A stretch of 64,000 bases of DNA from Gloeobacter morelensis MG652769 (GTDB lineage: Bacteria > Cyanobacteriota > Cyanobacteriia > Gloeobacterales > Gloeobacteraceae). Under the pieces are notes generated by a model that saw nothing but the letters and a program-made list of their open reading frames with translations, made no database searches and was not told the DNA's origin. Of this stretch, positions 27,473 to 35,677 are shown in pieces; position 1 is the first letter of the stretch; every line of letters begins with the position of its first letter. Made by a program: the position numbers and the translations under genes. Where the stretch lies: the NCBI RefSeq assembly GCF_021018745.1, contig NZ_CP063845.1, positions 2,542,001 to 2,606,000 of the forward strand, given 5' to 3'.

Positions 27473-28309
27473 ATGACGACGACCCTCGAAGGCCGCCGCC
27501 AATCGCCGGTCCAACAACTTCTTGCCGCATTGCCCGATGCCGGGAGCCTGCAGAAACTCGCAGCGCCGGTGGTGGCGATCGGTGTGTTCCTGCTGCTGTG
27601 GCAGCTGTTGACTTTGAGTCCCGACGCCACGCTGCCGGGACCTGCCAAGGTGGTCTCCGAGACCTGGGGACTGATCGTGGATCCGTTTTTCCGGGGTTCC
27701 GGCACCAACCAGGGGCTCTTCTGGCAGATCGCAGCCAGCCTGCAGCGGGTGGCCCTTGGCTTCAGCCTCGCCGCCGCAGTCGGGATCGCAGTCGGGATCG
27801 TGATCGGTGCCAATGCGCTGATCTACTCGGCCCTCGATCCGCTCTTCCAGGTGCTGCGCACCATTCCGCCCCTCGCCTGGCTGCCTATCTCCCTTGCGGC
27901 CATCCAGCAGTCCGAACCGGCGGCGATTTTTGTGATTTTCATCACCGCCATCTGGCCCATCATCATCAACACGGCGGTAGGCGTCCAGCAGATTCCCCAG
28001 GATTACAACAACGTCGCCCGCGTCCTGCAGCTGTCGCGCCCGAAGTATTTTCTGAAGGTGCTGCTGCCGGCGGCTTTGCCCTATATCTTCACCGGCCTCA
28101 AAATCGGCATTGGCCTCTCGTGGCTTGCGATCGTGGCGGCGGAGATGCTGATTGGCGGTGTGGGGATCGGCTTTTTTATCTGGGACGCCTACAACAGCGC
28201 CAAGGTGAGCGAGATCGTCCTTGCTCTGGTGTACGTGGGTCTAGTCGGGTTGCTGCTCGATAAGCTGGTCGGTTTTATCGGCAAACTGGTTGCTCCTGCC
28301 GAACGCTAA
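27473..28309 (+). CDS. cmpB: Bicarbonate ABC transporter permease, probable CmpB
   Basis: The ATG at 27473 follows AGGAGAG and gives 278 residues. It is a BPD-type inner-membrane permease with about six helices. The conserved EAA-like loop (ARVLQLSRPKYFLKVLLPAALPYIFTGLKIGIG) lies near residues 182-215, and TIPPLAWLPISL near 130 is typical of the nitrate/bicarbonate/taurine group. It starts 38 bp after cmpA. It should form the channel driven by CmpC and CmpD. Confidence 0.88.
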   Translation: MTTTLEGRRQSPVQQLLAALPDAGSLQKLAAPVVAIGVFLLLWQLLTLSPDATLPGPAKVVSETWGLIVDPFFRGSGTNQGLFWQIAASLQRVALGFSLAAAVGIAVGIVIGANALIYSALDPLFQVLRTIPPLAWLPISLAAIQQSEPAAIFVIFITAIWPIIINTAVGVQQIPQDYNNVARVLQLSRPKYFLKVLLPAALPYIFTGLKIGIGLSWLAIVAAEMLIGGVGIGFFIWDAYNSAKVSEIVLALVYVGLVGLLLDKLVGFIGKLVAPAER

Positions 28310-28391
28310 AAGCCAAGATTGCCGCTTTTTTTCTCAGAATGCAGATATGTTCAATCGTGAGATGGAATTCGATTCACGCCAGGAGGAAACC

Positions 28392-29096
28392 ATGACCGTT
28401 CAGCAGCCCAAGTTCTTCTCGCGCCGGGATCTGTTGTTTACCGCCGGTACCGGGTTTTTTGCAGGAGTCGTCGCAAGTGCCCTGCCCACCGGCGCCGAAG
28501 CGGCCACCAATCTGACCGCCGATCAGGCGCTTGAGCGGCTCGTCGAAGGCAACAAGCGCTGGATCCAGTTCAAACTCACCGGAGCGGACCGCACCAAAAG
28601 CCGACTTGCGGAAGTGGCCAAAGGCCAAAGTCCCTTCGCCGCCTTCGTCAGCTGCGCCGATTCGCGCGTACCGGCTGAACTGATCTTCGATCAGGGTCTG
28701 GGAGACCTGTTCATGAACCGGGTGGCGGGCAACGTCCTCGATGAGATGATGCTGGGCAGCCTCGAATTTGCCACCTCCGTCCTCGGAGCGCCCCTGGTCG
28801 TGGTCATGGGTCATCAGCGCTGCGGTGCGGTGCAGGCGGCGGTCAAAGCGGTGACCGAGGGTACCCAGTTTCCGGGCCACCTGGCCAATTTTGTCGATGC
28901 CATCCGCCCGGCGGCGGCGAGCATCAAGGGCATGCCGGGCGATGCGGTGGAAAACGCCATTCGCGCCAATGTGCTCATCACCGTCGACAAGATCAAAACG
29001 GCTCCTCCCATCATCAGCAAGCTGGTGGAGCAGGGCAAAGTCAAGGTCGTGGGCGCCCGCTACGACCTCGATACCGGTGCTGTCAGCTTTTACTAA
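28392..29096 (+). CDS. β-carbonic anhydrase with a Tat-type signal peptide
   Basis: The ATG at 28392 follows AGGAGG and gives 234 residues. The N-terminus has a twin-arginine motif, SRRDLLFTAG, a hydrophobic core and an Ala-Glu-Ala-Ala cleavage region near residue 35. The mature part has the β-class zinc ligands C88 and D90 in SCADSR and H141/C144 in GHQRCGAV. It catalyses CO2/HCO3- interconversion and should act folded in the periplasm. It lies between cmpB and cmpC in the same direction, so it is placed to supply bicarbonate to the transporter. It is not the carboxysomal CcaA, given the export signal. Confidence 0.9.
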   Translation: MTVQQPKFFSRRDLLFTAGTGFFAGVVASALPTGAEAATNLTADQALERLVEGNKRWIQFKLTGADRTKSRLAEVAKGQSPFAAFVSCADSRVPAELIFDQGLGDLFMNRVAGNVLDEMMLGSLEFATSVLGAPLVVVMGHQRCGAVQAAVKAVTEGTQFPGHLANFVDAIRPAAASIKGMPGDAVENAIRANVLITVDKIKTAPPIISKLVEQGKVKVVGARYDLDTGAVSFY

Positions 29097-31141: not shown

Positions 31142-31951
31142 ATGATCGCCAATTCCGTCTCGCTCGAACCGCTGCTGGCCATCCGCAACGTCAGCAAATC
31201 GTTCCCGACCCCGAACGGCCCCTACACGGTGCTGGAGGACGTCAATCTCGCCGTGCGCCAGGGCGAATTCGTCTGCATCATCGGTCATTCCGGCTGCGGC
31301 AAGACGACCCTGCTCAACATGGTGGCGGGCTTTGCCACCCCCACCACGGGCGAGGTGCTCCTGCGCTCTGAGCCCATCGCCCGGCCCGGCCCCGACCGAA
31401 TGGTGGTTTTTCAGGGCTACGCGCTGTTGCCGTGGCTGTCAGCCTTCGAAAACATTTATCTGGCCGTCGACGCGGTCTGGCCCACCAAGTCCAGAAGCGA
31501 AAAAACAACCATCGTGCAGACCAACCTGGCTCGGGTGGGCCTGTCGGAGGCGGCCGAGAAGAAGCCCGCCCAACTGTCCGGCGGCATGAAGCAACGCGTC
31601 GCCATCGCCCGGGCGCTTTCCATCCAACCGGAGGTGCTCATCCTGGACGAACCTTTCGGCGCTCTTGACGCCATCACCAAAGAAGAACTCCAGGAGCAAC
31701 TATTGCAAATCTGGAATACCAGTCGCGCCACGGTACTGATGATCACCCACGACATCGACGAGGCGCTCTTTCTGGCTGACCGGCTGGTGATGATGACCAA
31801 CGGTCCGGCCGCCCACATCGGCGAGGTGTTGACGATTCCCTTTGCCCGGCCACGCAACCGCACCCGCATCATGGAAGACCCGCGCTACTACGACCTGCGC
31901 AACCATGCCCTGGATTTTCTTTATCGCCGCTTCGCCCACCAGAGCGACTAA
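31142..31951 (+). CDS. cmpD: Bicarbonate ABC transporter ATPase, probable CmpD
   Basis: The ATG at 31142 gives 269 residues, a stand-alone ABC ATPase closely similar to the N-terminal half of CmpC. It has Walker A GHSGCGKT near 46, LSGGMKQR near 147 and Walker B LILDEPFG. With CmpC it forms the ATPase dimer below CmpB. It begins 25 bp after cmpC and ends the operon. Its stop codon overlaps the last codons of the convergent ccmO by four bases. Confidence 0.89.
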   Translation: MIANSVSLEPLLAIRNVSKSFPTPNGPYTVLEDVNLAVRQGEFVCIIGHSGCGKTTLLNMVAGFATPTTGEVLLRSEPIARPGPDRMVVFQGYALLPWLSAFENIYLAVDAVWPTKSRSEKTTIVQTNLARVGLSEAAEKKPAQLSGGMKQRVAIARALSIQPEVLILDEPFGALDAITKEELQEQLLQIWNTSRATVLMITHDIDEALFLADRLVMMTNGPAAHIGEVLTIPFARPRNRTRIMEDPRYYDLRNHALDFLYRRFAHQSD

Positions 31952-32685
31952 CGCTCGGGAGTCTTGGCGGGCAGCTCCAACAATTCGCCCACTTCCTGGC
32001 GCACCAGGCTCGGCAGAAGCAGGGGTTCGGGCACTTCGAGCAGCGCCGGGGAGATAGGCAGCGATTGCTCCAGTTCGTCGAGGGGCCGGGGGATGACCAT
32101 GACCGCGTGCAGTTCGCCGATGCGCTCGGCTTCTTTCATCCCGGCGTCGATGGCGTAGATCACATCGGCAACGTGGCCCTGGATGATCACTGTGCACAGG
32201 CCGGCGCCGATTTTTTCGTAGCCGATCAGGTGCACCTCGGCGGCGCGCAGCATCGTGTTGCTCGCCCCCACCAGCGCCGGAAACCCGCGGGTTTCCAACA
32301 GACCGATCGCCTGGTTGCTGAAGTGGCTGAAAGCCTGCTTGCGGGCGTAGCGGGGGATGCGGCTGTTGATGGGCAGCACCGCCTCGAGATTGGCAAGGGG
32401 CCGGGGGATGATCGAAGAAGTGACCAACTGACCGAACTCCTTGGCCGTCTGCACCCCCGCCTCGACGGCCAGGCGGACATCGGAGGTTTTGCCCCGCACC
32501 ACGGCAGTACAGTACCCGCCGCCCACTTTTTCGTAGCCTACCAGGAGCACCCCGGCGGACTTGAGCATCGCGTCGGCGGTCCCGACGATCGCGGGATAGC
32601 TGGAGGTCGAAACCAGACCGAGGGCGCTTTCCATTACAAATCCTGACTCACGCCATGGCAAAGGCGCGGCAATCCTCTCAATCAT
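31948..32685 (-). CDS. ccmO: Carboxysome shell protein CcmO, tandem BMC domains
   Basis: The ATG at 32685 follows GGAGGAG and gives 245 residues. It has two BMC domains, at about residues 20-105 and 125-210, each with the KSAGVLLVGYEK-like and RAAEVHLIGYEK-like core and an IPRPL element. Tandem-BMC shell proteins assemble as pseudohexameric trimers in the β-carboxysome facet. The last 35 residues are Leu/Pro/Glu-rich. It ends the ccmK-K-L-M-N-O operon. Its 3' end overlaps cmpD on the other strand. Confidence 0.95.
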   Translation of the reverse strand: MIERIAAPLPWRESGFVMESALGLVSTSSYPAIVGTADAMLKSAGVLLVGYEKVGGGYCTAVVRGKTSDVRLAVEAGVQTAKEFGQLVTSSIIPRPLANLEAVLPINSRIPRYARKQAFSHFSNQAIGLLETRGFPALVGASNTMLRAAEVHLIGYEKIGAGLCTVIIQGHVADVIYAIDAGMKEAERIGELHAVMVIPRPLDELEQSLPISPALLEVPEPLLLPSLVRQEVGELLELPAKTPER

Positions 32686-32760: not shown

Positions 32761-33348
32761 CTACGTTCCTGGGGCAGAATCGGGGTTCTGCAGCGAGACG
32801 TCGTGGGGAAAGAGACTGAGGCGCAGCCGCTCCAGGTACGCCTTGCCCGCCACCGGCGGCTGACCGTTCTGCTGCGGTTCGGGGAGTGCCGCCTGCACCG
32901 GCGGGTCCAAGCCGGCCGCAAGCGCCTGGTTGGGATCGCGCGGAGCTGGAGCGGCGGGAATGACGTGGGGTTGCGCCGTTGCCGCAGGCAGGGCCTCGGC
33001 GGAGCGGCCGGCCTGGCCGACTAGCGAATGGGGGGGAATCACCTGGCCAGGAGCGATATCGGGATTGAGCAGGGTCGTAGCCGTGCCGACGCAGGCGTCG
33101 GCGCCGATTTTACCCCTGCCCACCACCAGCACCCCTGCGCCAAGACTGGCCCCCGAGCCTACTTCGAGGGTGCCCTGATGGGCATGCAGGATAGCTCCCA
33201 TGCCGATGCACGCTCCTGAGCCAATCACGATGCGGCTGTCGGGGTCAGCCCGCAGTAGAGCGCCGGAGGCGACGGCCGCGCCGGGATGGATGGTCACATC
33301 GCCGCTTGTGTAGGCGTTAGCGTCCCAGGGCGGTGGCAGAGAAGCCAT
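32761..33348 (-). CDS. ccmN: Carboxysome assembly protein CcmN
   Basis: The 195-residue protein has an N-terminal left-handed β-helix of hexapeptide repeats (about residues 15-100), a Pro/Ala-rich linker, and a C-terminal amphipathic helix GKAYLERLRLSLFPHD that matches the CcmN encapsulation peptide. In β-carboxysomes the β-helix binds CcmM and the peptide binds CcmK shell proteins, linking core to shell. The gene starts five bases after ccmM ends and is 75 bp from ccmO. About ten residues follow the peptide, so it is not quite terminal. Confidence 0.93.
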   Translation of the reverse strand: MASLPPPWDANAYTSGDVTIHPGAAVASGALLRADPDSRIVIGSGACIGMGAILHAHQGTLEVGSGASLGAGVLVVGRGKIGADACVGTATTLLNPDIAPGQVIPPHSLVGQAGRSAEALPAATAQPHVIPAAPAPRDPNQALAAGLDPPVQAALPEPQQNGQPPVAGKAYLERLRLSLFPHDVSLQNPDSAPGT

Positions 33349-33352
33349 CGGT

Positions 33353-34640
33353 TCAGGGCCGCTGGATGATCAGTTCAGCGACGCGGCGCTTGGCCTTGGG
33401 GTCGATACCGATCAGCCGCACGTACTCACCTGTATGCTCGCGCAGCACGGTCTCCAGAGCACTCACCGCCTCCGGCTCGCGGGCCGCCTGGAGCGTTGGG
33501 CCGCTCACCCACGAGTTGGCCTTGAAGCGGCGGGCATCGGCAAATTCGACCGCGAGGCGACAGCCCTGGGCAAGCAGAGAGCGCACCATATCGAGCACCT
33601 CGCTGCTGAGCGAACTGCTGCGCGTCGGGCCGGGTGCATAGGCCGGTGCGGGACTGTAGCCGCCCGCAGCCGGTGCGCTCGCAGGAGCAGGTTTGCCGTT
33701 GGGCCGCTGGATGATAGTCTCGCTCACGCGGCGCTTGGCCTTGGGGTCGATACCGATCAGCCGCACGTACTCACCTGTATGCTCGCGCAGCACGGTCTCC
33801 AGAGCACTCACCGCCTCCGGTTCGCGGGCCGCCTGGATCGCCGGGCCGCTCACCCACGAGTTGGCCTTGAAGCGCCGCTCGTCGGCAAATTCGACCGCGA
33901 GGCGACAGCCCTGGGCAAGCAGAGAGCGCACCATATCGAGCACGGCGGCATCGAGCATGCCGCCCCCGCCGCTCCGATGGCTGACGGTGTTGTAGCCCTG
34001 GGTTGGAGCGGCGTCTCCCCCGCTCGGCCGCTTGCCGTTGGGGTGCTGAATAATCGTCTCGGCCACGCGGCGCTTAGCCTTGGGGTCGATACCGATGATG
34101 CGGACATATTCGCCGGTATGTTCCTGGAGACAACCTTCGAGGGCAGCGAGCACCTCCGGTGCGCGAGTAGCGGCAATCGGCGCGCAACTCTGCCAGGAAT
34201 TGGCCCGAAAGCGCCGCTCGTCGGCGTGCTCGGTGCCGATGCGATAGCCCTGCGAAAGGAGCGAGTGCACCTGCTGGGCCGCCTCGGGACTGAGCAGACC
34301 GCCGTTGGCCGGCTGGTAGGCAACGCCCGCGGGAGCGGCCGGGGTTGCAGCGAACTTGCCGCCGCTAACGTTGGCCTCGATCGGTTTGCCGTCGGGGCGC
34401 TGGATGATAGTCTCGCTCACGCGGCGCTTGGCCTTGGGGTCGATACCGATCAGCCGCACGTACTCACCTGTATGCTCGCGCAGCACGGTCTCCAGAGCAC
34501 TCACCGCCTCCGGTTCGCGGGCCGCCTGGATCGCCGGGCCGCTCACCCACGAGTTGGCCTTGAAGCGCCGCTCGTCGGCAAATTCGACCGCGAGGCGACA
34601 GCCCTGGGCAAGCAGGGAGCGCACCGTGTCGAGGGTTTGA
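33353..34640 (-). repeat. Four SSUL-encoding repeats within ccmM, three nearly identical in DNA
   Basis: Copies lie at about 34393-34640 (1), 34040-34270 (2), 33705-33945 (3) and 33353-33600 (4). Copies 1, 3 and 4 are almost identical over some 200 bases, including synonymous sites, whereas copy 2 differs at many positions. This points to recent homogenisation of three copies by recombination. Confidence 0.85.
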
Positions 34641-35347
34641 CTGGTCATGAACATACTGCTTACCTGAGCGTGGGTTCTGGGTGTGGGTTTGCCGTTGGTG
34701 CCCCGCGGCGCCGGGTTGCTCTCGTCGCGAATCGGCACGATGCACTCGATGTCGGCGGCGCAGCGATAACCCTGGCGCAACGCATCGTTGATGCCGATGA
34801 CGTGCTTGGCGAAGTGGATATCGATATCCTGGGCGTCGGGGAGGCGGTTGGCCTGCTGCTGGGTGGTAATCACCGCGCCGGAGGGCACGTACTTGCCAGG
34901 CGGGATCTCCACATCCTGCACCAGCGCGTGCATCATCACGATGCAGCCTTTGCCCACCCGGGCATTAAAGATTGTCGAGCGAAAGCCGATGAAGCAATCG
35001 TCGCCGACGTAGCAAGGCCCGTGGATGAGGGCCATATGGGTAATCGAGGTGTTCGAGCCCACCCACACCGAGTAGGATTGGCCGTCGTCGCCGTTGACCC
35101 GTCCTTCCTGCAGGCCGTGGATGACCACGCCATCCTGGATGTTGGTGTTGGCACCAATGTGAAAGGGTGAACCCTCGTCCGCACGAATCGAGGTTCCCGG
35201 CGAGACCAGTACGTTGGCGCTGATGCGCACATCGCCGATGATCTGCGAGAAACTGTGTACGTAGGCGGACGGATCGATTGCGGCCTCAGCCAACCGTCTC
35301 GACCACGGGGTAGGGGGAGCCGCGAGGCGGCTTTGTGCAACCATCAA
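33353..35347 (-). CDS. ccmM: Carboxysome scaffold CcmM: γ-carbonic anhydrase domain plus four SSUL repeats
   Basis: The protein has 664 residues. Residues 15-205 form the γ-carbonic anhydrase β-helix, with zinc ligands H77, H104 and H109 and the cysteine pair C196/C202 that in Thermosynechococcus CcmM forms the activating disulfide. So the domain is probably an active anhydrase. Four Rubisco-small-subunit-like (SSUL) modules follow, at about 237-320, 353-432, 475-555 and 585-664; these bind Rubisco to form the condensate. Only module 2 has the redox cysteine pair (C388, C406). Internal ATGs at 34654 and 34648, behind AGGTAAG, could give a short SSUL-only form of about 432 residues. Confidence 0.96.
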
Positions 35348-35374: not shown

Positions 35375-35677
35375 CTAGCGGTACTGGTCCTTTTTGCTGT
35401 AGAGCGAGCGGTTGTCGACGCTGACCGTGTCGATGATGCCGATCACTACCGCGTCGACCGGACGCTTTTCACTGCCCACCACTTGCCTGGCCGCACTGCC
35501 GCGGCTGAACAGTACCCATTCGTCGAGCCCGGCCCCGACGCCGTCGGCCGCCACTTCATATTGCGCAAGCGGCTGGCCGGCCTCATCGATAAGTTGGAGC
35601 AGCAAAAATTTTACCCCGACCATGCTGGGCTCCTTTTGCGTGCTGACCACCGTGCCCCGGACTCTGCCAATCTGCAT
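35375..35677 (-). CDS. ccmL: Carboxysome vertex protein CcmL
   Basis: The 100-residue protein is a BMV-family pentamer that caps the vertices of the shell. Marks are the N-terminal [35 protein letters not shown] near residue 45 and the VIGIIDTVSVDN segment. The ATG overlaps the upstream ccmK stop as TGATG, which suggests translational coupling between shell hexamer and pentamer. It lies 27 bp before ccmM. Confidence 0.95.
   Translation of the reverse strand: MQIGRVRGTVVSTQKEPSMVGVKFLLLQLIDEAGQPLAQYEVAADGVGAGLDEWVLFSRGSAARQVVGSEKRPVDAVVIGIIDTVSVDNRSLYSKKDQYR

Follow-up and report, generated by a model that had tools for sequence, protein, structure and literature searches.

One redox-type module among four in the CcmM of Gloeobacter morelensis, and a recurrent pattern of at least one SSUL cysteine pair per multi-SSUL CcmM chain

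CcmM of Synechococcus elongatus PCC 7942 (M58/M35) combines a gamma-carbonic-anhydrase (gamma-CA)-like domain, inactive in that species, with three SSUL modules, of which modules 1 and 2 carry a Cys pair. Oxidation weakens Rubisco binding by the short form and promotes homodemixing of the long form, M58 binds Rubisco equally well in either redox state, and M58 no longer homodemixes once the Cys of SSUL1 and SSUL2 are replaced by Ser (PMC8580825). S. elongatus deprived of the CcmM disulfides forms large aberrant carboxysomes and requires high CO2, as cited in PMC12935002. CcmM of Synechocystis sp. PCC 6803 has four SSUL modules, with pairs in SSUL3 and SSUL4 that proved redox-active on titration (Em -271 and -254 mV), so that a difference in pair position between species has already been noted (PMC13214033). 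In T. elongatus BP-1, the gamma-CA domain of CcmM is activated by oxidation via Cys194-Cys200 (PMC13249358). An SSUL domain of the same fold, also with a Cys pair, occurs in Nostoc Rubisco activase (6HAS), where it is fused to an ATPase. The literature searched yielded no protein chemistry for any Gloeobacter CcmM, and no structure or redox data for the one analysed here.

We analysed a stretch of 64,000 nucleotides (the window) from the chromosome of Gloeobacter morelensis, which measures 4,921,229 bp. The product of one open reading frame is identified as CcmM, the scaffold of the beta-carboxysome, by its profile matches and by its domain order: a gamma-CA-like domain at the N-terminus and, after it, a series of four SSUL modules (Table 1). 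The gene belongs to a ccmK-ccmK-ccmL-ccmM-ccmN-ccmO cluster, recognized by matches to the BMC, EutN_CcmL and CcmN profiles and by a gene with two BMC domains. The nearest named record is a metagenome-assembled genome (MAG) of Aphanocapsa lilacina HA4352-LM1, with 93% identity. Residues are numbered here from the TTG codon, although the ATG at codon 2 (35342-35344) is the likelier start because GGAGG lies 9 nt upstream of it; the protein would then have 663 residues and all residue numbers would decrease by one.

Table 1. Features of the ccmM locus, in window coordinates
Feature	Position	Strand	Basis
ccmO-like shell protein, two BMC domains	31948..32685	-	PF00936, two stretches
ccmN	32761..33348	-	NCBIfam NF053793, 150 bits vs cut-off 100
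ccmM ORF, 664 aa from TTG	33353..35347	-	NCBIfam NF053794 beta_CO2some_M, 873.7 bits vs cut-off 550
ccmL	35375..35677	-	PF03319
Gamma-CA domain, aa 6-209	34721..35332	-	PDB 3KWC best solved relative, E 2.3e-106
C196, first Cys of gamma-CA redox pair	34760..34762	-	alignment with 3KWC
C202, second Cys of gamma-CA redox pair	34742..34744	-	alignment with 3KWC; PMC13249358
M232, candidate internal start of SSUL-only short form, 433 aa, 46.6 kDa	34652..34654	-	ATG, weak upstream AGG
SSUL module 1, aa 242-318, non-redox (C250, Gly, Val)	34394..34624	-	PF00101, Cys columns
C250 (AQGC), module 1, loop before first strand	34598..34600	-	sequence, module 1 model
SSUL module 2, aa 360-436, sole redox module	34040..34270	-	alignment with 6HBA
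C388, first Cys of SSUL redox pair	34184..34186	-	aligns with Cys of 6HBA
C406, second Cys of SSUL redox pair	34130..34132	-	aligns with Cys of 6HBA
SSUL module 3, aa 473-549, non-redox	33701..33931	-	protein identical to module 1
C481 (AQGC), module 3	33905..33907	-	sequence
SSUL module 4, aa 588-664, non-redox, converted towards modules 1 and 3	33356..33586	-	nucleotide identities
C596 (AQGC), module 4	33560..33562	-	sequence

PF00101 matches four stretches of this CcmM, and the whole SSUL region contains just five Cys. As the earlier note had described, with all Cys positions correct, C388 and C406 lie 18 residues apart in module 2 only, while the pair columns of modules 1, 3 and 4 are occupied by Gly and Val, and each of these modules has a single Cys, in AQGC. 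Its equation of the pair with the SSUL1 disulfide of S. elongatus is borne out by alignment with the two Cys of PDB 6HBA/6HBB/6HBC, the spacing and the columns being equal. As in Synechocystis, there are four modules, but the pair is found in module 2 instead of modules 3 and 4, and S. elongatus differs in both module number and pair positions. Module 2, including its pair, is kept in two sister species, so the pattern does not look like a product of chance. The pair-less modules appear to be normal SSULs, since 6MR1, the best solved match of module 1 (used as query on behalf of modules 1, 3 and 4), is a CcmM SSUL with the same fold and no Cys pair. We take 6MR1 to be from Thermosynechococcus. 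The predicted structure of module 1 (pLDDT 94.8; TM 0.97 to 6HBC and 0.93 to 6MR1) assigns it to the SSUL fold, to which modules 2, 3 and 4 are assigned by sequence; in that model the loop preceding strand 1 holds the AQGC Cys, strand 2 the Gly and the second long helix the Val. Taken together, the alignments support module 2 as the only SSUL of this CcmM in which the disulfide known from other SSULs is predicted to be possible, and any redox tuning of the SSUL type would therefore have to go through it. An SSUL-bearing activase was rejected as a source of further redox SSULs, as the fusion known from Nostoc is absent from this genome: in a profile search of the whole genome, PF00101 matched only rbcS and ccmM.

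The gamma-CA domain carries a second Cys pair, C196/C202, which the earlier note did not mention. It is the equivalent of Cys194-Cys200 of T. elongatus (PMC13249358), and the three His ligands (His77, His104 and His109) are kept as well, so that by sequence the domain agrees with the T. elongatus type and differs from the inactive domain of S. elongatus. Both Cys are present in 214 of the 276 multi-SSUL CcmM surveyed below. The suggestion that redox control rests on a single module hence stands among the SSULs, but it does not extend to the whole of CcmM, because C196/C202 is also present.

These features can be joined, by homology with the S. elongatus and T. elongatus proteins, into the following model, to which we assign a probability of roughly 0.7. 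The four SSUL modules would bind Rubisco multivalently, and in the reducing cytosol all of them would serve as Rubisco linkers. In the oxidising lumen of the carboxysome, module 2 alone would be oxidised, by a reversible C388-C406 disulfide, while modules 1, 3 and 4 would remain constitutive linkers. Oxidation of module 2 would loosen Rubisco binding by the short form and favour contacts between CcmM trimers, and the carbonic anhydrase domain would at the same time be activated through oxidation of C196/C202, giving the oxidising lumen two points of action in one protein. With one switch among four modules, the redox effect may be slight. Across cyanobacteria, the model assumes that each CcmM chain requires at least one redox SSUL, though no particular one, and that gene conversion could freely replace one non-redox module by another but would not replace a redox module by a non-redox one.

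We then examined how redox modules are distributed among relatives. The set comprised 276 distinct CcmM with at least two SSUL modules (that of the window and 275 relatives), collected from named genome contigs, relatives, a phylum sample and two orders by searches blind to the Cys pair; the sampled genomes are related to one another. One pair was present in 78 proteins, two in 175, three in 17 and four in six. A single redox module is therefore ordinary, and the arrangement in the window is nothing special: the sole redox module was found at every position, whether module 1, 2, 3 or 4, so that no rule of module position could be upheld. The exact pattern "only module 2 of four" was seen in three proteins of the Gloeobacter group and in four that are Thermosynechococcus-like, and at least 54 changes of redox pattern are needed on a tree of 190 leaves. 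In a Gloeobacter-group genome of 4.72 Mb, the redox module is module 1 and not module 2. A module tree comparing the two is uninformative through homogenisation within species, which hides whether the module has moved or the pair was differentially lost and retained (the outgroup module Anth_1 is out of register in this tree and should be disregarded).

Despite this variability, not one of the 276 proteins was without any Cys pair, where independence of the modules would predict 22.9; two proteins that seemed to lack a pair were left uncounted as incomplete, one ending at a contig end and the other with a likely frameshift. The idea of at least one pair per protein came from the first 190 proteins, and the 86 further proteins all agree with it. 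The major alternative is that the pair of module 2 is a chance leftover, i.e. that Cys were lost randomly and one pair was kept in each lineage by chance and shared descent. Pair positions and numbers do vary widely, many of the genomes are close relatives, and, once the proteins are clustered, not many would be expected to be pair-less (8-13). Yet after clustering of the first 190 proteins at 80% identity, none of 96 was pair-less against 8.1 expected, and a count model in which the last pair is never lost was favoured over one with an equal loss rate (2dlnL 9.54, p 0.001; 7.1 on the first set), albeit as a simple model on a single gene tree, that of the carbonic anhydrase domain, with at most four pairs and uncertain branch lengths. 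Moreover, loss of the pairs impairs growth of S. elongatus in air (PMC12935002). We thus regard random loss as improbable. Most likely, to judge from these sequence patterns, CcmM needs at least one SSUL switch, at whatever position. Our confidence is only slightly better than even in the wider proposal that at least one thiol-switchable module, wherever it sits in the chain, is indispensable to every multi-SSUL CcmM, that maturation of the beta-carboxysome depends on one SSUL switch in each polypeptide, and that the two module classes form separate pools of gene conversion.

As for these classes, no pair consisting of a redox and a non-redox module of one protein reached 90% identity (0 of 764), compared with 24 of 513 pairs of the same type; the difference (Fisher p 2e-10) is given without tree correction, and the identity of mixed pairs is slightly lowered as the classes differ by definition at two columns. 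That redox and non-redox modules are never homogenised together is, along with the absence of pair-less proteins, the new observation of this survey. Other columns (P390, T372, A389, H410 and H374) track pair status, and judged by such residues, notably Pro390, Thr372 and His374, redox modules are a module type that differs beyond its Cys. Because modules with the pair share these neighbouring residues, the target of selection could be the module type and not the thiols, so as to keep a redox-type surface (motif TEH...C.P) for contact with Rubisco or with the gamma-CA domain, redox function being secondary. Against this speak the effect of the Cys-to-Ser replacements on homodemixing in S. elongatus (PMC8580825), indicating that the thiols themselves matter, and the redox activity of the Synechocystis pairs at the potentials given above (PMC13214033). 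We therefore consider it an unlikely explanation, a shade less probable than random loss.

Homogenisation among non-redox modules is conspicuous in the window. Modules 1 and 3 are identical in protein (77 of 77 residues), which the earlier note had missed, while their DNA differs at 2-3 of 231 nt depending on the module frame; this near-identity ends at sharp boundaries, with flanks diverged on both sides. The two modules are also identical in A. lilacina. Module 4 shares 215 of 231 nt with module 3 of its own gene but 194 with module 4 of A. lilacina, whereas module 4 of A. lilacina and that of a sister genome of 4.66 Mb share 217. Module 4 of the window, which thus resembles module 3 of the same gene more than its sister counterpart, was recently overwritten, the AQGC Cys being carried along. 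Module 2, on the other hand, shares 208-210 of 231 nt between species but only 152-162 with its own neighbouring modules, and so stayed out of this conversion. In the Thermosynechococcus-like group, which likewise has four modules and the pair in module 2 only, the modules are not homogenised in this way and an AQGC-type Cys is found in module 3 only.

This bears on the AQGC Cys, which the earlier note had described as shared by modules 1, 3 and 4. The site proved to be variable within the genus, a point previously overlooked, with His in module 4 of A. lilacina and in modules 3 and 4 of the 4.66 Mb genome. Since the motif was spread by gene conversion and is replaced by His in sister species, we do not regard it as a conserved second thiol system, and this was rejected as the main reading. 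Across the set, Cys at this site was found in 82 of 473 pair-less modules against 17 of 503 modules with the pair, a difference that could stem from weaker constraint or from a role of that thiol. That the AQGC Cys form disulfides between modules or chains, as a second redox device replacing the lost pairs, is the least credible of the alternatives and very improbable: three such Cys are present in the window, they are commoner where the pair is missing and the one modelled sits in a loop, but a single Cys has no partner within its module, the extra copies are explained by conversion, His occupies the site in one or two modules of the sister genomes, and only 61 of the 276 proteins have any such Cys.

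The preferred reading, a requirement for at least one switch irrespective of its place, is of some practical interest, as efforts to engineer carboxysomes into crops target the condensation of Rubisco by CcmM. The work in S. elongatus, in which the SSUL disulfides were taken out, did not settle the number required or their position. The pattern predicts that one switch would be enough and zero would not, and the 78 natural one-switch CcmM offer a ready minimal set.

The survey omitted the single-SSUL gamma-CA paralogs, most of which, in contrast to multi-SSUL CcmM, have no Cys pair. Eight short CcmM paralogs consisting of a gamma-CA domain and one pair-less SSUL were noted, several of them sharing a genome with a full CcmM. 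In the window, DNA around the ATG of codon 232 is identical in two sister species, although the upstream AGG is weak, and the putative short form starting there would exceed the 35-kDa one of S. elongatus in size.

Finally, a beta-carbonic anhydrase gene (PF00484; window 28290-29096, plus strand) lies near the ccm cluster, flanked by the ntrB/cmpB-like and the cmpC-like gene of an ABC transporter of the nitrate/bicarbonate type, and is one of two in the genome, the other being a 214-aa frame. On account of its twin-arginine-like N-terminus and of this transporter-gene setting, the product is probably not the carboxysomal enzyme CcaA; it is possibly a periplasmic carbonic anhydrase paired with the transporter.
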